Source: an uncultured Ectothiorhodospiraceae bacterium (GTDB lineage: Bacteria > Pseudomonadota > Gammaproteobacteria > UBA6429 > Thiohalophilaceae). Taken from it: 64,000 nt of DNA. This document shows positions 4,602 to 20,488 of the stretch, piece by piece. The stretch covers positions 1-64,000 of the forward strand of contig CAMYMU010000001.1 of assembly GCA_947259575.1 (NCBI GenBank), read 5' to 3'. A program made the position numbers and the translations under genes. How positions within the stretch are numbered: the first letter of the stretch is position 1; the number at the start of each line of letters is the position of its first letter. The notes beneath the pieces are model-generated. The model was not told the DNA's origin. It saw nothing but the letters and a program-made list of their open reading frames with translations, and searched no databases.

Positions 4602-4619
4602 TAATAATTCCATATCAGT

Positions 4620-4652
4620 AAAAAAAGGCGGGTTGTACCCCGCCTTTTTTTT
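4620..4652 (+). terminator. Rho-independent terminator
   Basis: The stem GGCGGG/CCCGCC, with a short loop, is flanked by an A-run and followed by eight T. It lies 20 bases after the aminotransferase stop and would also work in part on the other strand. Confidence 0.92.
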
Positions 4653-4699
4653 GCACTTCAATTAGTCAAGCAATTAAAAATACACAATAATAATAATAA

Positions 4700-4713
4700 T
4701 TGATAAAGATCAA
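4700..4713. promoter_or_regulatory. Perfect FNR/ANR-type box upstream of acyl-activation operon
   Basis: TTGATAAAGATCAA matches the FNR consensus TTGAT-N4-ATCAA at every defined position. Its centre is at 4706.5, about 106 bases before the ATG at 4813. A TATAAT lies at 4743-4748, and a TACCTA at 4736-4741 would fit the classic -41.5 activator spacing. Which hexamer is the -10 is undecided. An FNR-family regulator is the natural reader. Regulation is inferred from the site alone. Confidence 0.65.
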
Positions 4714-4812: not shown

Positions 4813-6648
4813 ATGACCACCTTTACACAACAAAATACTGACTTTATTAACGAGGCGGTTGCGACAACTTTGCCGGGTTTGTTTGATGCGCGAGTCAAAA
4901 GTAGCCCCAACAAACTTGCCTATCAACAATATGCAACAAGTACGGGCTCATGGCGAAGCTATTCATGGAATGATATGTATCAACTGGTATGTCGCTGGCG
5001 GCAGGCGATGGAGCTGGAAAAGCTTACGCAGGGTGATAGAGTTGCCGTTAATCTGGGTAATAGCATTGAGTGGGTTTGTTTCGATCAGGCGGCACAATCA
5101 CTGGGTCTGGTAGTTGTGGCGCTTTACACCACCGATACTCCGGAGAACATTCGTTATATTCTCAACGATGCGGGTGTACGCTTGTTGTTGGTTGATAAGC
5201 TACAGACCTGGCAAGGGCTTTCTGAAGAGAGACAGTCGCTTGTTGACTTGCAACGTGTTTGGTGTTTGGAAAAAGAGGAAAATTCGGCAAAGTTTCCGGA
5301 TCAGCGACTGCGTTATGTAAGTGATATCTTGCCTGATGTAGCAACGCCTTATGTCAGCTCTGAACTGGATACAAATGCGTTGGCAACACTCATTTATACT
5401 TCGGGCACGACGGGACGACCCAAGGGGGTCATGTTATCCCATCACAATATCCTCTCGAATGCAGAAGCCGTACAACAGATAGTGCCGACTTATCAGGAAG
5501 ATATCTTTCTTTCCTTTCTGCCTCTGGCGCATGGCTTTGAACGTACTACGGAGTACATCCTGCCAATGATGGCCGGCTGTTGTGTGACGTATGCTCGCTC
5601 AATCAGTTTATTGAAAGATGATCTGGTAGAGGTAAGGCCAACGGTCTTTATTTCCGCGCCGCGCCTATATGAAAAGATCTACGTCGCGATACAAGAGAAA
5701 ATTTCTACGAGTTGGTTGAAACACAAGTTATTTGACTGGGCAGTCGCACTGGGCTGGAAACAATTTCTTGCCAGACAAAAACGCGGTCCCCATTTGAATC
5801 CCATTCAGCAATTTTTTCTTAAGCTTTTACAGAACGTTGTTTCAAAAAAGGTGCTGACTAAATTAGGTGGTCGTATACGTGTTGCTGTAACCGGTGCTGC
5901 GCCCTTGTCGCCGAGTGTCAGTCGCTTCTTTATTGGTCTGGGTTTACCATTGCTAGAGGGTTATGGATTGACTGAAGCAGGGCCGGTTGTGAGTGGCAAC
6001 AATCAGGGTGACAATGTCCCGGGCTCGGTGGGCAGGTCCTTGCCCGGTGTTGACGTCACAACAACAGATACTGGTGAGCTCCTGGTTCGTTCCCCCAGTG
6101 TGATGCAAGGCTATTGGCAACGAGAACAGGCTACCCGTGAGGTGCTCGATGATGAGGGTTGGTTACGCACCGGCGATCTGGCTGAGATCAAGGATGGTTA
6201 TATTTATATAACAGGTAGAAGTAAGGAGATCCTTGTGACTTCTACCGGTGAAAAGATTCCACCTGCTGATATGGAAACAACAATTATGCTGGATCCTTTG
6301 TTTGCTCAAACCATGGTGGTAGGGGAGGGTAAACCCTATCTGTCAGCCATATTGATTCTTAATCAAGAGCTATGGTCTGGGTTTGCAAAAGATCTGGGAT
6401 TGGACCCGAACGATAAACAATCGCTGCGTGATGAAAGGGTAGTTAATGCAGTACTAGAACGCCTTGCTGGTTTGCTTGGCGCTTTTCCTGTCTATGCGCA
6501 AGTGCATGCTGTTTATCTAAGTTGTGATCCCTGGACGATTGAGAATGGTTTGTTGACACCTACATTAAAAACCAAACGGCATGTACTAGAGGGAAAATTT
6601 GCTGAACAAATCAAAGAGCTCTATCGTGGTCATGTAATGCTCGAATAA
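4813..6648 (+). CDS. Long-chain acyl-CoA synthetase (AMP-dependent ligase)
   Basis: This 611-residue ANL-superfamily enzyme activates a long-chain fatty acid as acyl-AMP and transfers it to CoA. The ATP-binding loop YTSGTTGRPKG is near residues 195-205, the adenylate motif GYGLTEAGPVVS near 386, and the hinge TGDLAEIKDGYIYITGRSKE near 455. The closest textbook relatives are the FadD15/ACSL-like large synthetases rather than E. coli FadD. It should be cytoplasmic or membrane-associated. The ATG at 4813 begins MTTFTQQNTDF. The ACP-ligase-acyltransferase fusion follows after 25 bases, so the two are almost certainly co-transcribed, and the FNR-type box lies upstream of the pair. Substrate chain length is not deducible. 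Confidence 0.9.
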   Translation: MTTFTQQNTDFINEAVATTLPGLFDARVKSSPNKLAYQQYATSTGSWRSYSWNDMYQLVCRWRQAMELEKLTQGDRVAVNLGNSIEWVCFDQAAQSLGLVVVALYTTDTPENIRYILNDAGVRLLLVDKLQTWQGLSEERQSLVDLQRVWCLEKEENSAKFPDQRLRYVSDILPDVATPYVSSELDTNALATLIYTSGTTGRPKGVMLSHHNILSNAEAVQQIVPTYQEDIFLSFLPLAHGFERTTEYILPMMAGCCVTYARSISLLKDDLVEVRPTVFISAPRLYEKIYVAIQEKISTSWLKHKLFDWAVALGWKQFLARQKRGPHLNPIQQFFLKLLQNVVSKKVLTKLGGRIRVAVTGAAPLSPSVSRFFIGLGLPLLEGYGLTEAGPVVSGNNQGDNVPGSVGRSLPGVDVTTTDTGELLVRSPSVMQGYWQREQATREVLDDEGWLRTGDLAEIKDGYIYITGRSKEILVTSTGEKIPPADMETTIMLDPLFAQTMVVGEGKPYLSAILILNQELWSGFAKDLGLDPNDKQSLRDERVVNAVLERLAGLLGAFPVYAQVHAVYLSCDPWTIENGLLTPTLKTKRHVLEGKFAEQIKELYRGHVMLE

Positions 6649-6673: not shown

Positions 6674-9526
6674 ATGATGACAATAGAAAAAAAATCGCGA
6701 CCGAATATTCAGGATGATGTTGCCGCAAGGTTACTGACGGTTATACAAGAGCTGATTAACGAACTACGTCCTGCCAAGGGCCGAACGCTGATATTGTCAC
6801 TCGACAGCTCACTTGATGAGGATCTAGGTTTAGATAGCCTGGGTCGCGTTGAACTGATTGCTCGCCTTGAACAGCGTTTTAATATTGTTTTACCGCAAAG
6901 GACCTTTTCAGAAGCAGAGACTCCACGAGATTTACTGCGGGCTATAAAGAGTGCACATGGCCGCGATAAATTTTTCCATATCTCAGAAACTACAGAGTTG
7001 GTGGGCGAACAAATCGAAAGCCTACCGGTTGATGCCCAAACACTTATCGATGTCCTTGAGTGGAATGTTAAATATCATCCAGACCGGTTGCACCTACGTG
7101 TCCTCGGCGATGAAGATGAACAGGATAATCTAACCTACAAACAATTATGGGATGGTGCGGTAAATGTTGCCGCTGGTCTTCAGAAGCAGGGAGTTCAAGC
7201 TGGTGAAACCATTGCAATCATGCTACCAACTGGAAAGGATTATTTTTATAGCTTCTTTGCAATATTACTTACCGGGGCGATTCCGGTACCGATTTATCCA
7301 CCCGCCAGGCGTAGTCAGCTTGAAGATCATTTAAAACGACATAATGGAATTTTGAATAATTGTAAGGCGACGGTGCTTATTACCATCCCAGAAGCAAAGG
7401 TGATTGCACAATTACTCAAATCACAAGTAGGAAGCTTGCGTGATATCGTGACAGTGGCTGATTTAATATCGCATAACGAGAATTATATCCGCCCGCTCAT
7501 CGGCCCCTTCGAGGTAGCCTTTCTTCAATATACCTCGGGGAGTACCGGTAACCCCAAAGGGGTAGTACTAACGCATGCTAACTTGTTGGCCAATATACGT
7601 GCCATGGGAGAAGCAGTAGAGGCAGATTCAAGTGATGTCTTTATTAGCTGGTTGCCGCTATATCACGATATGGGACTTATAGGTGCATGGCTAGGAAGTA
7701 TGTATTTTGCAATGACCTTTATCGTCATGTCGCCATTAACCTTTTTAACCCGGCCCCAACGTTGGCTTTGGGCGATGCATCATTATCGCGGTACCTTATC
7801 TGCATCACCAAACTTTGGTTATGAACTGGTTATGAAGCGTCTTAACGACGCTGAGATCAAAGACCTTGATCTAAGTCATTGGCGATGTGCCTTTAATGGT
7901 GCTGAACCAGTTAGCTCAGATACGATTAAACGCTTTAGCAAACGATTTAGGGCGTATGGGTTTAAGCCTGAAACCATGATGCCGGTATATGGTCTTGCAG
8001 AGTCATCAGTCGGACTTGCATTTCCACCACTCCATCATTTACCTCGTGTGGATTGTGTAGAACGCGAGCTCTTCACGCACACGCGGCAAGCAAAAGAGGC
8101 GGATGAAAAAGACAATAATGCATTGTGTTTTGTGACATGCGGTCAGGCGATACCTGGCCATCAAGTTCGTGTTGTCGATGGTAGTGGTAAAGAAGTTCAT
8201 GAACGGCAAGAAGGTATGTTGCAGTTTCGCGGACCTTCAGCAACCAGCGGCTATTACCGAAACCCTGATGCAACAAAAAAATTATTCCAGGATGAATGGT
8301 TGGATACTGGTGATCTCGCCTATATGGCAGAGGGGTATATTTTTGTAACAGGGCGAAGCAAGGATGTCATCATTCGTGCCGGCAGGAATATATATCCTCA
8401 AGAGGTTGAAGAGGCAGTAGGCAAAATCGATGGAGTTCGCAAAGGCTGTGTTGTGACATTTGGCACGATTGAATCATCAACTGGAACTGAGCGTTTGGTC
8501 TTGATTGCAGAGACAAGGCAAGTAGATGACAAGTTTAAGCACGATTTACAAAAAAAAATTACGACTATTGCGAATGATCTAATTGGTCTACCACCAGATG
8601 AGGTGATCATTGCACCGCCACATACGGTATTAAAGACATCGAGTGGCAAGATAAGGCGTTCAGCCTGTCGGGAGATTTATGAACAGGACCAACTCGGTAA
8701 AACCCAAGCTGCATTATGGTTGCAAATCATACGTACAGTCAGCCGGTCGTTTTTACCTGTATGGCATCGATTGATACAGAAAGTAACTAATAGTTTCTTT
8801 GCAGCGTATGCCTGGCTTTTATTTTATATTCTGGCTTTTTTTTGTTGGACATCAGTCGTTTTGCTTCCAGTGTTAACCTGGCGCTGGCCTGTGATGCGTT
8901 TCTTTGCAAAGGGTTTAGCAGTTATAACAGGAACAAAAATCAGTGTGACTGGATTAGAAAACCTGCCCGATCCAGCAACAGCATGCATCTATGTTGCCAA
9001 TCATTCAAGTTACCTGGATGGAATGGTGATAGTAGCCGCTATTCCGCGAATATTTCGCAATGTTGCAAAGTCCGAATTACAAGATAATATAATTGCAAGA
9101 TTATTCCTGAACAGGATGGGCGTGGAATATGTTGAACGTTTTGATAAAAATCGAGGAGTGATTGATGCGCAACGTATAGCAAAAGTCGCGAAACAAAAAC
9201 AATCACTTTTTTTCTTCCCAGAAGGCACATTTCAAAATGTACCTGGCTTAATGAATTTTCATATGGGGGCATTCTTAACCGCAGCAGAAGTCAATGTTCC
9301 GGTTATCCCAATTGCGATTCGTGGTACACGCTCAATATTACGCGGAAAATCAAAGTTCCCGCGACGAGGTCGTATCACTCTTAACATTGGAGAAGCGATT
9401 CGTCCGGACGATTTATCTGAAGAAATGAACTCAGATCAGTGGAAACTTGCCATAGCACTTAGGGGTCAAGCAAGGAAACATATTTTGCATTATTGTGGGG
9501 AGCCTGATATCTCTCGTGCGGAGTAA
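6674..9526 (+). CDS. ACP - fatty acyl-AMP ligase - PlsC acyltransferase fusion
   Basis: Three functions are fused in 950 residues. Residues 1-95 form an acyl carrier domain with the phosphopantetheine site DEDLGLDSLGRVEL (Ser55). Residues about 110-690 form a fatty-acyl-AMP-ligase-like adenylation domain with YTSGSTGNPKG near 287 and TGRSKDVIIRAGRNIYPQE near 560. A hydrophobic segment at about 705-735 leads to a PlsC/LPLAT acyltransferase domain with the HX4D motif (His777, Asp782) and FFPEGTF. The layout suggests activating a fatty acid, loading it on the internal carrier or another acceptor, and acylating a lysophospholipid at the inner membrane. E. coli Aas joins the last two functions in the reverse order. 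The preceding synthetase lies 25 bases upstream. The start is uncertain by one codon (ATG ATG) and lacks a clear Shine-Dalgarno. It converges on ppsA with no obvious terminator. Confidence 0.9.
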   Translation: MMTIEKKSRPNIQDDVAARLLTVIQELINELRPAKGRTLILSLDSSLDEDLGLDSLGRVELIARLEQRFNIVLPQRTFSEAETPRDLLRAIKSAHGRDKFFHISETTELVGEQIESLPVDAQTLIDVLEWNVKYHPDRLHLRVLGDEDEQDNLTYKQLWDGAVNVAAGLQKQGVQAGETIAIMLPTGKDYFYSFFAILLTGAIPVPIYPPARRSQLEDHLKRHNGILNNCKATVLITIPEAKVIAQLLKSQVGSLRDIVTVADLISHNENYIRPLIGPFEVAFLQYTSGSTGNPKGVVLTHANLLANIRAMGEAVEADSSDVFISWLPLYHDMGLIGAWLGSMYFAMTFIVMSPLTFLTRPQRWLWAMHHYRGTLSASPNFGYELVMKRLNDAEIKDLDLSHWRCAFNGAEPVSSDTIKRFSKRFRAYGFKPETMMPVYGLAESSVGLAFPPLHHLPRVDCVERELFTHTRQAKEADEKDNNALCFVTCGQAIPGHQVRVVDGSGKEVHERQEGMLQFRGPSATSGYYRNPDATKKLFQDEWLDTGDLAYMAEGYIFVTGRSKDVIIRAGRNIYPQEVEEAVGKIDGVRKGCVVTFGTIESSTGTERLVLIAETRQVDDKFKHDLQKKITTIANDLIGLPPDEVIIAPPHTVLKTSSGKIRRSACREIYEQDQLGKTQAALWLQIIRTVSRSFLPVWHRLIQKVTNSFFAAYAWLLFYILAFFCWTSVVLLPVLTWRWPVMRFFAKGLAVITGTKISVTGLENLPDPATACIYVANHSSYLDGMVIVAAIPRIFRNVAKSELQDNIIARLFLNRMGVEYVERFDKNRGVIDAQRIAKVAKQKQSLFFFPEGTFQNVPGLMNFHMGAFLTAAEVNVPVIPIAIRGTRSILRGKSKFPRRGRITLNIGEAIRPDDLSEEMNSDQWKLAIALRGQARKHILHYCGEPDISRAE

Positions 9527-9565: not shown

Positions 9566-11938
9566 CTATTTGTTTTGATTCTTTGCGAGGAATAACCAGG
9601 TTTCCACTACAGTGTCCGGATTCAAGGACATGCTATCAATTCCTTGTTCCATTAACCACATCGCCAGGTCAGCGTGATCAGATGGGCCCTGGCCACAAAT
9701 CCCAATATATTTATCTTGCTTCTTACAGGCCTTTATCGCCATTTCAACTAGCTGTTTTACAGCAGGGTTGCGTTCGTCAAAGGCTTCAGCAATTAAAGCA
9801 CTATCCCTATCTAGTCCTAATGTGAGCTGAGTTAGATCGTTGGAACCGATCGAAAAGCCGTCAAAGTATTCCAGGAACTCTTCAGCCAACAGGGCATTGG
9901 ATGGGATTTCACACATCATGATATGTTGTAAGCCGTTCTCACCGCGAGCCAGTCCATTTTTTGTAAGTAATTCACTCACTGCTTTTGCCTCTTCCAGGGT
10001 TCGCACAAAGGGGATCATGATCGCGATATTATCCAGACCCATGCTGTTGCGAACTTTTTTAATCGCTTCACACTCGAGTTGGAAACAGGCCTGAAATTTT
10101 TCGCTAATGTAGCGTGAGGCTCCGCGTAAACCGATCATTGGATTTTCTTCTTCGGGCTCGTAATGCTTACCGCCAATTAAGTTTGCGTATTCGTTGGATT
10201 TGAAATCGGAGAGACGAACAATCACTCGCTTGGGATAAAAAGCAGCGGCCAGTGTGGCGATACCTTCGGTCAATTTTTCAATATAAAATGACACCGGGTT
10301 TGCAAAACCAGCTGTTTGTTGATTGATTTTGTCTTTCAAGTCCTGATCGCATTGGTCCATATTTAAAATGGCCAACGGGTGAATGCCGATCATGCGGTTA
10401 ATTATAAATTCAAGTCGGGCGAGACCGACTCCGGCATTCGGTAAGGCCTGAAAATCAAAAGCACGATCGGGGGTGCCGACATTCAGCATCATTTTAACGG
10501 GTAACTCTGGCATTGACTCCAGGTTAATTTCATTAATAACAAATTCGGCCTGGCCTTCATAAACAAAACCAGTATCGCCTTTCGCACATGACACGGTGAC
10601 TTCTTGGGTATCTTTAATTTGTTCGGTAGCTGTGCCACAACCGACAATCGCAGGGATGCCTAATTCACGCGCAATAATTGCCGCGTGGCAGGTACGCCCA
10701 CCTCTATTTGTAACAATGGCGGCTGCCTTTTTCATGATCGGTTCCCAGTCCGGATCGGTCATGTCGGTGACCAGCACATCACCTTCTTCGATCCGATCGA
10801 TCTGGCTGACGTTTTTAATGATCTTGGCCTTACCTGTGCCGATACGATTGCCGATGCTGCGGCCAGTGATAATAATCTCGTCATGTTTTCGAAGTTCATA
10901 ACGGGTTAATACATGTTTACTCGATTGACTGGCGACGGTCTCAGGTCGCGCCTGGACTATATACAACTGGCCATCATTGCCATCTTTGGCCCATTCAATG
11001 TCCATCGGTCTACCATAATGCTGTTCAATGGCGACCGCCATCCCCGCGAGCTTGTGGGCTTCATCGCCGCTGATCGAAAATTTGTTTTGCAGCTCTTTAT
11101 CAACATTCAGAGTCAAGGTGGCGGACTGTAGTTGATGCTGCTCGCCATAAACCATGCGCACAGCTTTATCACCTAGGCTTCGTTTCAGGATCGCATGTCG
11201 GTGTTGATCCAGATTAGGTTTGTAGACATAGAATTCATCAGGATTGACGGCACCTTGCACAACAGTTTCACCCAAACCATAGGCCGAGGTGATGAAGACA
11301 ACCTGATCGAAACCAGATTCGGTGTCTATCGAAAACATGACGCCGCTACTGGCAAGGTCACTACGAACCATTTTTTGTACACCGGCTGATAATGCAACCT
11401 GGCGATGATCAAAGTTCTGGTGAACACGGTAAGCAATCGCCCGATCGTTAAATAAAGAAGCAAACACATGTTTGAGTGCCCGTAATAAATTCTCGATGCC
11501 CTGAATATTGAGATAGGTCTCTTGCTGACCAGCAAACGAGGCCTCAGGTAAATCTTCGGCGGTTGCTGAGGAGCGAACCGCATAACTGGCATCACTGCCA
11601 TAGCGACTGACCAGTTCCTGGTAAGCATCGCGGACATTTTTTTCTAAATCAACAGGCAACGGTTGGGCAATGATCCAGTCACGGATCCTTTTGCCGGTTT
11701 CAGCTAACTGGCCAAGATTGGTGATATCGAGCTGGTCCAAATCTTTGTGTATGCGTTCTTCCAGACCATCATGAGCAAGAAAATGGCGATAGGCCTCAGC
11801 CGTGGTGGCAAATCCACCAGGAACCCGGATGCCTTTTGGCGACAGTGCCTGGATCATTTCTCCGAGAGAAGCATTCTTGCCGCCAACACTGGCGACATCT
11901 TCAATACCAACATTTTCAAACCAACGAATAACTGACAT
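9566..11938 (-). CDS. ppsA: Phosphoenolpyruvate synthase
   Basis: It converts pyruvate, ATP and water to PEP, AMP and phosphate in gluconeogenesis. The protein starts MSVIRWFENVGIEDVASVGG, the typical PpsA N-terminus, at 11938. An earlier ATG at 11965 would add nine residues, but GAAGGGAT lies just ahead of 11938, which also gives 790 aa, near the E. coli length of 792. The ATP-grasp domain comes first. The phosphohistidine domain contains GGRTCHAAIIARELG with the catalytic His, and the C-terminal PEP/pyruvate-binding barrel contains SIGSNDLTQLTLGLDRDS. It is divergent from its own regulator gene ppsR, about 110 bases away, so the pair shares a promoter region. Confidence 0.97.
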   Translation of the reverse strand: MSVIRWFENVGIEDVASVGGKNASLGEMIQALSPKGIRVPGGFATTAEAYRHFLAHDGLEERIHKDLDQLDITNLGQLAETGKRIRDWIIAQPLPVDLEKNVRDAYQELVSRYGSDASYAVRSSATAEDLPEASFAGQQETYLNIQGIENLLRALKHVFASLFNDRAIAYRVHQNFDHRQVALSAGVQKMVRSDLASSGVMFSIDTESGFDQVVFITSAYGLGETVVQGAVNPDEFYVYKPNLDQHRHAILKRSLGDKAVRMVYGEQHQLQSATLTLNVDKELQNKFSISGDEAHKLAGMAVAIEQHYGRPMDIEWAKDGNDGQLYIVQARPETVASQSSKHVLTRYELRKHDEIIITGRSIGNRIGTGKAKIIKNVSQIDRIEEGDVLVTDMTDPDWEPIMKKAAAIVTNRGGRTCHAAIIARELGIPAIVGCGTATEQIKDTQEVTVSCAKGDTGFVYEGQAEFVINEINLESMPELPVKMMLNVGTPDRAFDFQALPNAGVGLARLEFIINRMIGIHPLAILNMDQCDQDLKDKINQQTAGFANPVSFYIEKLTEGIATLAAAFYPKRVIVRLSDFKSNEYANLIGGKHYEPEEENPMIGLRGASRYISEKFQACFQLECEAIKKVRNSMGLDNIAIMIPFVRTLEEAKAVSELLTKNGLARGENGLQHIMMCEIPSNALLAEEFLEYFDGFSIGSNDLTQLTLGLDRDSALIAEAFDERNPAVKQLVEMAIKACKKQDKYIGICGQGPSDHADLAMWLMEQGIDSMSLNPDTVVETWLFLAKNQNK

Positions 11939-12048
11939 TACGATCCCTTCTGGTTTTTGTGTCACCCTGTCTGACGCACAGCAAACATGGTAGTAAACGA
12001 TAATAATAACTCCAACCTGCTATGATTATCTAAGAGAGTGACGTAAAT

Positions 12049-12858
12049 ATGAAACAACAAGTTTTTCTTGTATCAGATAGCACCGGTATCACCGTTGAGG
12101 CCTTAGGCCAGAGCCTGCTTGCTCAGTTCCCTCAGATCGTCTTTGAAACATCCATTCACCGTTATGTTAACAGTGTTGAAAAAGTCGATGCTATATGCCA
12201 GCAAGTGGCGGATAGCGCCAGTCGCTCAAAGCACAAACCCATTATCCTGAGTACCCTGGTACAGGGCCCATTGCGGGCAAAATTAGAGCAGGCCGACGCC
12301 CATGTTTTCGACATTATGGGTGAGTTTCTCACCCCACTGGAAGAAATTTTTCACTCCCAGGCTAGCCCGTCTTTGGGGCAGACTCACGGCCAAAAAGAGG
12401 ATGCGGAGTATCAACAACGTATGGATGCGGTCAATTTCGCATTGATTAATGATGATGGGGTAACGGGTAAGCATCTTGAGCGCGCCGATGTCATCCTGAT
12501 TGGTCCGTCTCGTTCTGGTAAAACGCCGACCTGCCTGTATCTGGCGATGCAATATGGTGTTTATGCCGCTAATTACCCATTGGTAGGGGAGGACTTCGAT
12601 CTGATGGTTTTGCCAGCAGCGTTGGTAAAGCATAAAAATCGACTATTCGGTCTGGTGATCAGCCCGGCCCGCTTGCACGAGATTAGGGAGGCCCGTCGCG
12701 CAGGCAGTGAATATGCCTCACTAAAGCAGTGCCAGTATGAGATCAATCAGGTCAATATTCTCTACCGTGAACACGATATTCCGACCTGTGAGGTCACAAA
12801 CCGCTCTGTAGAGGAAATTGCCACTAGAATCCTGCCTCATCTCCCCATCTCGTCTTGA
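12049..12858 (+). CDS. ppsR: PEP synthase regulatory protein (kinase/pyrophosphorylase)
   Basis: A DUF299-family bifunctional enzyme of 269 aa. It inactivates PEP synthase by ADP-dependent phosphorylation of a threonine next to the catalytic His, and reactivates it by phosphate-dependent dephosphorylation. The N-terminal VFLVSDSTGITVEALGQSL is diagnostic, and the P-loop GPSRSGKTP lies near residue 150. It faces ppsA across a short shared intergenic region, the usual arrangement. Its stop codon overlaps the -35 element of the htpG heat-shock promoter. Confidence 0.97.
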   Translation: MKQQVFLVSDSTGITVEALGQSLLAQFPQIVFETSIHRYVNSVEKVDAICQQVADSASRSKHKPIILSTLVQGPLRAKLEQADAHVFDIMGEFLTPLEEIFHSQASPSLGQTHGQKEDAEYQQRMDAVNFALINDDGVTGKHLERADVILIGPSRSGKTPTCLYLAMQYGVYAANYPLVGEDFDLMVLPAALVKHKNRLFGLVISPARLHEIREARRAGSEYASLKQCQYEINQVNILYREHDIPTCEVTNRSVEEIATRILPHLPISS

Positions 12859-12949: not shown

Positions 12950-14839
12950 ATGAGCGTGGACACCCAGAAAGAAACCCTGAGTTTCCAGACCGAGGTAAAG
13001 CAACTGCTGCACCTCATGATCCATTCATTGTATTCCAATAAGGAAATCTTCCTACGTGAGCTGATTTCCAATGCCTCTGATGCCTGTGACAAGTTGCGTT
13101 TTGAAGCGCTAAGTGATGCCGCACTACTAGAGGATGATACCGAGCTAAAAATCCGAGTTGAGTACGACAAGGACAACAAGACGGTAAGCTTTACCGATAA
13201 CGGCGTGGGCATGAGTCGTCAAGAGGTAATGGACAACATCGGTACTATTGCCAGCTCAGGGACTAAAAAGTTTCTGGATAAACTAACCGGCGATCAATCT
13301 AAAGATGCCAATATGATTGGCCAGTTTGGTGTTGGTTTCTATTCCTCGTTTATCGTTGCTGACAAAGTCACGGTTGAGACACGTCGCGCCGGCCTGGCAA
13401 AAGATGAGGCAGTACGGTGGGAATCTACTGGCGAAGGCGAGTACAGTATAGAGAACATCGAACGTGAGCCACGTGGTACCACTGTCACCCTGCATCTGCG
13501 TGATGATGAACACGAATTTGTCGAACCCTTCCGTTTACGCAGCGTGATTACCAAATACTCTGATCACATCTCGATGCCAATTGAGATGTGCAAACAAGAT
13601 GACAAAGGTGAGGACACCGAAGAGTTCGAGACGATAAACAAGGCATCTGCCTTATGGACACGGTCGAAGTCTGAGATCACGGATGAGGAATATAAAGAAT
13701 TTTATAAAACTGTAGCACACGACTTTGATGAACCCCTGTCATGGATTCACAATCACGTTGAAGGTACCCAGTCTTACACAACACTATTCTATTTACCAAA
13801 GCGCGCACCCTTTGATTTGTTTGAGCGTGATCAACGTCATGGTATAAAACTTTATGTCAAACGCGTATTCATTATGGATGATGCAGAACAATTAATGCCT
13901 AACTATTTGCGTTTTGTTCGCGGGGTGGTGGATTCAGATGACTTGCCGCTAAACGTCTCGCGTGAGATTCTACAACGTAATAAACACATCGACAGTATTC
14001 GTAGTGGTGGTGTGAAACGTATCCTTGGTGTGCTTGAAAAGATGGCCAAGGATGATGAAGAAAATTATGCCATATTCTGGAAGGAATTTGGTCGTGCACT
14101 CAAAGAAGGCCCAGCTGAAGATTTTGCAAACAAAGAGAAGATCGCAAAGCTAATGCGCTTTAGCTCTACCAGTAATGATAGTGATGCTCAAACCGTGTCA
14201 TTAGATGACTACATTGCGCGCATGAAGCCAGAACAGGACAAAATATTTTATATTACTGGCGATTCGTATAATGCGATTAAAAATTCTCCTCACCTGGAAT
14301 TATTCAAGAAGAAAGATATTGAAGTTCTATTGATGCATGATCGCGTCGATGAATGGATGATGTCTTACCTGGATGAGTATAGTGGTAAGAAGTTTGCGTC
14401 AGTAGCCAAAGGCGAAGTCGACTTGGGCGACCTGGAAGACAAGGAAGATAAAAAGAAAGGTGAAGAGGCGACTAAGGATTACAAAGAACTGCTGGAGAAA
14501 ATGAAGGAAACATTAGGGGAGAAGGTCAAGGAGGTTCGCATTTCTAACCGGCTCACCGACTCACCTTCGTGTCTGGTCGTAGAAGAACAAGACATGGCAG
14601 TTAGTATGCAAAAGTTGCTGAAACAGGCTGGACATAGCTTACCTGATATTCATCCTATCCTTGAGATCAATCCTGATCACATGCTGGTCAAGCGTTTAAA
14701 AGAACAGCCTGACGATCAACATTTTAGTGACTGGACTCACATCCTGTTTGATCAGGCCATGTTGAGTGAGGGTGGTCAGCTTGATGACCCCGTTAGTTTT
14801 GTTAAACGTATGAATGAGTTACTCACTTCTATTAGTTAA
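12950..14839 (+). CDS. htpG: Molecular chaperone HtpG (Hsp90)
   Basis: An ATP-dependent dimeric Hsp90 chaperone of the cytoplasm, 629 aa (E. coli 624). The N-terminal GHKL ATPase shows LFLREL-type helix residues ([19 protein letters not shown]), DNGVGM and [11 protein letters not shown]. The middle domain carries [11 protein letters not shown] with the catalytic Arg region, and the C-terminal dimerisation domain contains [13 protein letters not shown]. An AGGAGA ribosome binding site precedes the ATG. The consensus sigma-32 promoter just upstream and the terminator just downstream indicate a single-gene heat-shock unit. Confidence 0.98.
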
Positions 14840-19694: not shown

Positions 19695-20023
19695 CTGTTC
19701 CTCCAATCAACATATTATGAACCGCCCGTTACCTTAATACCTGCAGTTCATGTGGTTATTGATCTGGATCAACTGTCAGGCGTTGTTCAACTGGATTTCA
19801 GCTAGGTGTCTGTAAATTAAGGATTATTATTTTTTTATCGAATACTTACTTAGCTAGCGGTTTACGCATTCAAAGCGGAAAACCTGACTAATTAAAGACT
19901 GTATAGAAGCATTTACTTATATATCAAGCTTTGTACCTGCTTGCCGACATATTCTGAGTTAGATAAGAAAAGCTGGTCTCAGAAAGATAATCACAAAACG
20001 ATAAATCCCAGACAGAAAATCGA
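19695..20023. other. Intergenic region between the 34-aa membrane protein gene and cheX
   Basis: A divergent gap that holds the FNR-type box described separately and must contain the cheX promoter. I see no RNA gene or terminator in it. Confidence 0.5.
19734..19772 (-). promoter_or_regulatory. FNR-type box and -10 for the 34-aa membrane protein
   Basis: TTGATCTGGATCAA at 19759-19772 is a perfect TTGAT-N4-ATCAA palindrome. On the minus strand a TATTAA hexamer at 19739-19734 would put the start of transcription near 19724-19727, so the box is centred about 38-42 bases upstream, close to the -41.5 of FNR-activated promoters. That start lies about 30 bases ahead of the miniprotein ATG. Confidence 0.7.
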
Positions 20024-20488
20024 ATGAAAGCAAACATGATCAATCCCATTCTGCAGACCATGGTCACAGTGATGACGACAATGGCGAGTGTTGAGCCGAG
20101 TATGGGGAAGCCAACATTGAAGGACGATGATGCAGCACTCGGTGATGTCACCGGCATCATGACCATGAATAGTCCTCAGATGAAAGGCTCATTTGCTCTT
20201 ACGTTTCCGGCCCCTGCCATTTTCGATATCGTGAAGCGCATGTTGGGAGAAGAAATTAACGAAGTGAACGATACCGCAAAGGACATGGCAGGGGAGATGA
20301 CCAATATGGTTGTCGGCGGTGCTAAAAATATTTATATCGAACAAGGTTATGATTTTGATATGTCGACACCGAATATAATTACCGGTAAAGACCACAAGGT
20401 AGAGCATGAGTGTAACGGCAAAACCATCGTCTTACCCTTTAACATAGAAGGTCAGGAATTTTTTGTTGAATTGTGTTTTGATGAATAA
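20024..20488 (+). CDS. cheX: CheX-type chemotaxis phosphatase
   Basis: A 154-residue CheC/CheX/FliY-family protein, expected to dephosphorylate CheY-P or related receiver domains. The catalytic E-x-x-N motif is present once (Glu91, Asn94 in AGEMTNMVVGGAKN), as in CheX, which has a single active helix per protomer. The C-terminal strand region (FNIEGQEFFVELCF) is typical. It stands alone with no che genes beside it. The PilZ gene and the hybrid kinase with a receiver are the nearest signalling neighbours. Solitary CheX proteins in gammaproteobacteria may act on receivers other than CheY. Confidence 0.88.
   Translation: MKANMINPILQTMVTVMTTMASVEPSMGKPTLKDDDAALGDVTGIMTMNSPQMKGSFALTFPAPAIFDIVKRMLGEEINEVNDTAKDMAGEMTNMVVGGAKNIYIEQGYDFDMSTPNIITGKDHKVEHECNGKTIVLPFNIEGQEFFVELCFDE

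Follow-up and report, generated by a model that had tools for sequence, protein, structure and literature searches.

A carrier–FAAL–PlsC fusion protein as a candidate single-chain machine for lysolipid acylation without coenzyme A

Introduction

The protein considered here invites comparison, above all, with Aas of Escherichia coli, in which an acyltransferase (residues 1–203) precedes a synthetase (residues 204–719) and which forms the Aas/LplT system together with the transporter LplT (PMC11416262). In the available sections of PMC8926400 and PMC12663445, Aas is the sole comparable protein; the Arc3 defence family, which we considered as a known relative, was rejected, as Arc3A is described there as a polytopic membrane protein. 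Fatty acyl-AMP ligases (FAALs) provide the other point of departure. According to the relevant passages of Patil et al. (2021, PMC8460268), typical bacterial FAALs always accompany polyketide or polyketide/lipopeptide genes, while a small number of bacterial FAAL-like domains have lysophospholipid acyltransferases as fusion partners, for which roles independent of polyketide synthases (PKSs) and nonribosomal peptide synthetases (NRPSs) were suggested. We found no functional study of a three-part protein of the kind described below in the open-licence literature, which misses most subscription papers, and a term search of the main text of a 2025 review of FAALs (PMC11837247) finds neither 'PlsC' nor 'phospholipid'.

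Here we analyze a 950-residue protein that joins an acyl carrier domain, a FAAL and a PlsC-type acyltransferase in one chain. It is encoded on a 64,000-nucleotide stretch of DNA (hereinafter the window) from an uncultured Ectothiorhodospiraceae bacterium (assembly GCA_947259575.1, contig CAMYMU010000001.1, positions 1 to 64,000). We propose, with a probability of about 0.6, that it is a single-chain, membrane-bound lysolipid acyl-transfer machine, which would use ATP and a built-in carrier to re-acylate lysophospholipids without coenzyme A (CoA).

Domain architecture and conservation as a single unit

The fusion gene is an open reading frame with an ATG start at 6674–9526 on the forward strand, as are the further parts of it given below, and its antisense counterpart frame is stop-rich. 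A Pfam scan of the product returns three matches above cut-off, namely PP-binding (residues 40–91, E-value 2.4e-11), AMP-binding (residues 128–528, 5.1e-68) and Acyltransferase (residues 755–882, 6.4e-23). In contrast, none of the 25 best NCBIfam models attains its own cut-off, the top one, fatty acyl-AMP ligase, scoring 427.7 bits against a required 600. An AlphaFold2 model of the whole chain (mean predicted local distance difference test score, pLDDT, 88.7; predicted TM-score 0.81) places the carrier domain at residues 12–93 (6707–6952), with helices at 12–31, 55–69, 75–80 and 84–93, and its Ser55 (codon 6836–6838) lies within an LGLDSL motif. The FAAL adenylation domain spans residues 122–672 (7037–8689), with the codon of its A10 lysine, Lys659, at 8648–8650. 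It is followed by a hydrophobic stretch at about residues 706–737, with a hydropathy peak of 2.29 at residue 715, and by the PlsC-type acyltransferase core (8936–9319), which contains the HX4D motif (H777–D782; 9002–9019) and motif III in the form FPEGTF (9215–9232). The tether between the carrier and the FAAL (residues 93 to 122) is 24–45 residues long across the relatives described below, with 29 residues in 29 of 72, and that between the FAAL and the PlsC part (residues 672 to 706) has 34 residues in 57 of 72. A reading made earlier from the sequence alone (hereinafter the sequence-only reading) had recognized a carrier, an acyl-AMP ligase and a PlsC acyltransferase in these 950 residues, named Ser55 and the HX4D motif as their sites, and stated that order and content differ from those of E. 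coli Aas; the open reading frame and domain search bear out the first claim, both sites were located and prove to be invariant, and the order is indeed the reverse of the acyltransferase–synthetase arrangement of Aas.

A pattern search of the genome collection gave at least 588 stretches, 587 of them encoding relatives; the best 80 contig loci were kept and, together with four plasmids and the window, make up the 85 loci examined here. In 77 of these the protein is co-linear from before residue 60 to beyond residue 880, and in the other eight it either runs into a contig end (seven loci) or is frame-broken (L050). Hence, the three-part protein is real, and chance, mis-assembly or an accident of frame can be excluded as its origin. 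Our alignment of 73 sequences combines the window's protein with those of 72 full-length contig loci (44–54% identical to the fusion), the eight partial and four plasmid loci being excluded; across it Ser55, K295, K659, H777, D782 and E850 are invariant, with S55, K659, H777, D782 and E850 likewise present in all members of a separate set of 15 sequences that includes plasmid relatives (41–67% identical). Moreover, the three domains show correlated pairwise distances (Mantel r of 0.37, 0.62 and 0.41 versus maxima of 0.21–0.25 in 500 permutations). In one relative (genome G034, locus L112, 3720–6441) the fusion gene matches in two pieces, with an interruption after the FAAL part and before the PlsC part; the frame may be broken, or the gene may be naturally split.

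FAAL affinities of the adenylation domain

Searches of solved structures by sequence return FAALs as the best matches (3pbk, E-value 8e-87, and 7r7e-g), namely the E. coli FAAL and that of the Synechococcus olefin synthase, and in a Foldseek search with the model the top 14 rows are all FAALs, counting FadD32 as one, with a TM-score of 0.92 by target length for 3pbk_A. In the E. coli enzyme (EcFAAL), CoA is excluded by the bulky residues W224, M231 and F279 together with a short helix, T252–R258 (PMC8460268). We transferred these positions via the PDB sequence alignment, in which the chain numbering is one below that of the paper. The three residues correspond to W326, M333 and F381 of the fusion, each invariant in all 73 sequences, and the helix to about residues 354–360, where P354 and F357 are equally invariant and the modelled structure forms a helix from 354 to 359; we delimit this FAAL-specific helix region as residues 354–361 (7733–7756). 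At the W326 and M333 positions the two FAAL-like proteins found elsewhere in the same genome also have W and M; the corresponding pair is A and F in E. coli FadD and in both Aas proteins compared here (that of E. coli and that of the fusion's own genome), F and F in the ligase encoded next to the fusion and in two other AMP-ligases of the genome, and P and F in a Cupriavidus ligase. Position 381 alone is not diagnostic, F being found also in both Aas proteins and the neighboring ligase, and S in one of the FAAL-like proteins of the genome (L003).

A further distinguishing feature is a FAAL-specific insertion after the A5 glutamate (residues 444–489; 8003–8140). It is shared with the two FAAL-like proteins of the genome, with small gaps in L003, and about 29 of its residues are missing from FadD, both Aas proteins and four other ligases (the neighboring one, own_L007, own_L008 and that of Cupriavidus); the interval from E443 to G489 measures 43–55 residues across the 73 sequences. 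The catalytic residues S288, K295, E443, D547, R561 and K659, which we take to represent motifs A3, A5, A7, A8 and A10 of the ANL superfamily, are present in every one of the 73. In a small FastTree phylogeny of 25 sequences (16 fusions and nine references), the fusions group together with a support of 0.946 and with two FAALs at 0.996, while Aas is placed elsewhere and no clade of fusions and Aas appears. The CoA-blocking residues, the insertion, the structural matches and the tree placement together thus identify the adenylation domain as a FAAL, predicted to reject CoA, rather than an Aas-type synthetase, and this is the type of enzyme that would be expected to load a carrier.

The PlsC part and its likely acceptor

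When the C-terminal 261 residues are searched as a profile built from 61 sequences, a single confident relative emerges among solved structures, the PlsC of Thermotoga maritima (TmPlsC; 5kym, E-value 3.5e-34). A separate model of the PlsC part (mean pLDDT 95.9) superimposes on 5kym with a Z-score of 25.0 over 227 residues (root-mean-square deviation 2.5), the runner-up being human GPAT1 at 16.1, in a ranking obtained by re-aligning Foldseek's matches rather than by a full search. The sequence-only reading had placed a membrane segment between the last two domains. While a hydrophobic stretch does lie there, it is not an extra part: the alignment with 5kym includes its N-terminal helices and the same helix pair is seen in the separate model, so that the segment is the membrane-anchoring helix pair of the PlsC domain itself (residues 693–752, 8750–8929, with model helices at 693–730 and 734–752). 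A hydropathy peak above 1.6 marks this pair in 69 of 73 sequences. The N-terminal helices of PlsC are said to have a membrane-positioning role, as in the title of Robertson's 2017 report.

The catalytic features of the PlsC part are intact. H777, D782, R822, E850 and G851 are found in all 73 sequences, the proline ahead of E850–G851 in 61, and K799, the equivalent of TmPlsC K105, in 69. The equivalent of TmPlsC R159 behaves differently, as it is replaced by F (58 sequences), L (12) or I (1) in 71 of 73 and retained as R in two. This arginine is thought to coordinate the phosphate of lysophosphatidic acid (LPA), and the lyso-aminolipid acyltransferase SalA has a valine at the same position, according to the relevant sections of PMC8319176; by alignment, both Aas proteins have an isoleucine there. 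Since the presumed LPA-phosphate ligand is lost from nearly all members, LPA is probably a poor guess as the acceptor; a better candidate would be a lysophospholipid that bears a head group, or some different lipid that has no terminal phosphate.

The loss of this residue bears on two other explanations. In the first, the PlsC part would turn LPA into phosphatidic acid, with the fusion channeling free fatty acids into new phospholipid. The fold and motif III do resemble those of the LPA acyltransferase PlsC, and the PlsC part has a profile score of 80.6 bits to E. coli PlsC versus 65.0 to E. coli Aas. Nevertheless, we regard this explanation as improbable, given the replacement of the arginine in 71 of 73 sequences and its retention in stand-alone PlsC-like proteins of the same genome, two of whose three such reading frames have EGTR at this site and one EGTT. 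The second explanation keeps the chemistry that we propose but assumes a lyso-aminolipid, a glycolipid or some other non-phosphomonoester lipid as the acceptor, in which case a special membrane lipid would be made and none repaired. The parallel with SalA would suit this, as would the patchy distribution of the fusion even within its genus; however, no lipid-synthesis partner recurs beside the gene (at most 4 of 112 same-strand neighbors share a family), in a scan blind to partners on the opposite strand or at distant loci. We consider such a special-lipid role unlikely.

Distribution

The sequence-only reading had suggested a census of the architecture as a check, and this reveals that the arrangement is common rather than rare. 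With an E-value of 1e-150 or lower taken as presence, and with the window's genome included in each sample, the fusion is found in 65 of 369 gammaproteobacterial genomes, in 13 of 58 relatives and in 6 of 398 genomes sampled across the phylum by a different draw. Of the 168 plasmid records that match at all, 9 cover 80% or more of the protein. Judging by their record titles, the best 80 contigs come from gamma-, beta- and alphaproteobacteria, Desulfobacterota, Nitrospira, Acidobacteriota (Thermoanaerobaculia and Blastocatellia), Entotheonella, Planctomycetia and actinobacteria (Mycobacterium innocens, Rhodococcus aetherivorans and Nitriliruptoraceae), where the phylum of some names is as we presume it to be; cultivated hosts of the gene include Thiocystis violacea and Hahella ganghwensis. 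Many of these contigs belong to metagenome-assembled genomes, and an isolated unexpected taxon may reflect an error in binning. In three genomes out of the 65 positive ones (G117, G209 and G344) there are two matches each, one of the six being partial, and the fusion thus sometimes occurs in two copies.

We also considered whether the fusion replaces Aas and found no support for the idea: at a threshold of E-values up to 1e-40, Aas is present in 6 of the 13 fusion-bearing relatives versus 18 of the other 45, two of the six (G025 and G038) being weak, approximately 30% identical matches in long frames.

Proposed mechanism and its weighing

We envisage the following sequence of events. A phosphopantetheinyl transferase, for which the genome has one candidate by a match to PF01648, would arm Ser55 of the carrier. 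The FAAL domain would then convert a free fatty acid and ATP to an acyl-AMP, with CoA shut out, and pass the acyl group on to the phosphopantetheine carried by the same chain. On its tether of about 29 residues, the loaded carrier would swing to and dock on the PlsC domain, which the helix pair would seat at the inner membrane and which might acylate a head-group lysophospholipid at its free hydroxyl. The net reaction would be free fatty acid + lysophospholipid + ATP to phospholipid + AMP + pyrophosphate, with the involvement of neither CoA nor the shared acyl carrier protein AcpP. Physiologically, the protein could offer, in one covalent assembly, an alternative to E. coli Aas for the repair or recycling of damaged or half-finished membrane lipids, and what it might gain over Aas is independence from the AcpP pool and a strict separation from CoA-linked beta-oxidation. 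The sequence-only reading had likewise envisaged a chain that loads its own carrier and hands the acyl group directly to a lysolipid; that view is strengthened by the presence of three functions in one chain, by the conservation of the catalytic residues checked and by a FAAL of the CoA-rejecting type, while its idea of the membrane segment as a separate element has to be given up.

Several observations weigh against the mechanism that we propose. Fatty-acid specificity is not readable from the sequence, and the case for the acceptor leans on one residue, such that aminolipids or other acceptors that are not phosphomonoesters would fit equally. The comparison with Aas at that residue is not clean, as both Aas proteins carry an arginine one position earlier (EGRI versus EGTF of the fusion), and the profile scores cited above favor E. 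coli PlsC over Aas as the nearer relative. The distances of the carrier domain are only moderately correlated with those of the other two domains. Further, the genome that encodes the fusion also has an Aas of its own, 49% identical to that of E. coli and followed by a major facilitator superfamily (MFS) protein 32% identical to LplT, which would make a repair role redundant. The fusion is also dispensable, as the three other genomes of the same genus that were searched (completeness 86, 70 and 99%) have no match. Finally, the genomic context lends little positive support to lipid repair: an ATG22-like MFS protein, defined as one gene cluster with three members named by Pfam, is encoded within two genes of the fusion on either strand in 7 of 85 loci (L045, L057, L059, L061, L074, L082 and L101). 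It could be a lipid or lysolipid transporter that partners the fusion, faintly recalling LplT beside Aas.

On balance we retain the single-chain lysolipid acylation machine as the reading of choice. A broader view, which we hold tentatively and at slightly less than even odds, is that a large and widespread branch of the FAALs has left natural-product synthesis and, joined to a carrier and a PlsC of its own, provides a second, complete route of lysolipid repair independent of CoA and AcpP alongside Aas/LplT. A family in which FAALs are joined to a membrane acyltransferase would tie CoA-avoiding chemistry to ordinary membrane lipids, and a cell so equipped could build a free fatty acid into its membrane with the CoA and AcpP pools untouched. 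Such a protein would also offer a one-gene system for placing chosen fatty acids in lipids and would allow a clean test of whether passing acyl groups among three sites of a single chain brings a gain in speed or selectivity over a loose pair of Aas and acyl carrier protein (ACP).

Genomic neighborhood

Neighboring genes were called by a codon-position score with the fusion forced, and these calls are rough. The gene immediately upstream in the window (4813–6648, forward strand) codes for a FadD11-like long-chain acyl-CoA ligase of 611 residues and ends 26 bp before the fusion, with which it is probably co-transcribed. It lies outside the conserved unit, as a ligase of this type stands beside the fusion in one (L106) of 11 related loci searched (L105–L115). 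More generally, a same-strand AMP-ligase adjoins the fusion in the window, in Cupriavidus and in Paraburkholderia. On a Cupriavidus plasmid (L023, 7242–17204), the run of genes comprises the fusion, an AMP-ligase, an acetate-CoA ligase, the pyruvate dehydrogenase E1 alpha and beta and E2 components, and a free acyl carrier protein. Downstream in the window, a phosphoenolpyruvate synthase gene lies on the opposite strand, 40 bp from the fusion; with the divergent gene for its regulator PpsR it occupies 9566–12858, near htpG at 12950, an ordinary arrangement.

Across the loci, we found no conserved operon partner in a family scan of 112 of the 130 same-strand neighbors, the 95 opposite-strand ones not being scanned as a set: among the 25 commonest Pfam families, the most frequent reach 4 of 112. 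The largest clusters of neighboring genes, an AMP-ligase cluster and an ABC ATPase, reach 11 of 85 loci and are scattered. This absence of a partner recurring beyond a few loci fits the self-contained machine that had been suggested from the sequence.

The neighborhood also speaks to a further explanation, namely that the carrier and FAAL supply some other pathway (for a polyketide, a lipopeptide or an alkyl lipid) while the PlsC part independently uses acyl-CoA or AcpP thioesters. Typical bacterial FAALs do serve PKSs and NRPSs, at least as described in the relevant passages of PMC8460268, and the source genome has, beyond the fusion, a FAAL–carrier protein and another FAAL on contig C62. Against this, there is no PKS or NRPS among the 11 neighbors of at least 1000 residues within three genes of the fusion, the three domains remain joined in all loci but those truncated or frame-broken, and their distances correlate. 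We therefore regard a division of labor of this kind as very improbable. Regarding the proteins on contig C62, the first is a FAAL with a C-terminal carrier domain (L002, 1426–3384), and the second, about 5 kb away, is a FAAL-like protein with a DIP2-like AMP domain (L003, 1339–3093); the pair possibly represents a separate lipid or lipopeptide cluster.

Upstream region

About 100 bp before the ligase–fusion pair lies an exact FNR/ANR-type palindrome, TTGATAAAGATCAA (4700–4713, no strand assigned). Between the pair and the preceding aminotransferase gene, 3' of the latter, is an intrinsic-terminator-like hairpin (4618–4654, forward strand; −20 kcal/mol, z −5.29), which is not listed by a consensus terminator scan. 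The window has two exact FNR-type boxes versus 0.25 expected, a count also reached in 4 of 100 shuffles; the second (19759–19772), upstream of a CheX-like gene at 20024, may be a chance occurrence. The genome encodes two FNR-type proteins with an N-terminal CX2CX5C motif. The 4700 box and the neighbors of the plasmid relatives had prompted the idea of an FNR or hypoxia regulon as a general feature, which was not upheld in the relatives. A box with at most one mismatch occurs within the 300 bp directly before the fusion, the stretch covered by the scan irrespective of operons, in 5 of the 78 usable loci among the 85 versus 0.83 expected from shuffles, a weak excess. In none of L105–L115, 11 relatives in all, did an exact box turn up ahead of the fusion; one of them (L106) has a contig end inside the ligase gene and hence an unreadable promoter. 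Low-oxygen control might thus be a possibility local to the window.

Comparison with known systems

The fusion of a FAAL to a lysophospholipid acyltransferase mentioned by Patil et al. is very probably the present architecture. In the relevant part of that paper (PMC8460268) it receives one sentence, in which the carrier domain, distribution, acceptor and mechanism are not given. The FAAL–ACP didomain proteins HapA and NocH share with the fusion a FAAL joined to its own carrier, and they differ, according to the corresponding sections of PMC11837247, in supplying PKS lines and lacking a PlsC domain. The PlsC of T. maritima shares the fold with its N-terminal helix pair, the HX4D motif, the K105 equivalent and the FPEG motif, while the fusion differs from it in having F, L or I in place of R159 and in that the acyltransferase sits behind its own acyl-loading module. 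Like E. coli Aas, the fusion combines acyl-activating and PlsC-type domains in one chain, has typically no arginine at the R159 position and is proposed to catalyze the same net reaction. Unlike the fusion, Aas has the reversed domain order and no carrier domain, uses free ACP and is encoded beside LplT; its synthetase lacks the FAAL insertion and falls on another branch of the small tree, and the source genome encodes both proteins. Hence, we expect the fusion to work like Aas while being built from a FAAL and being no Aas itself.

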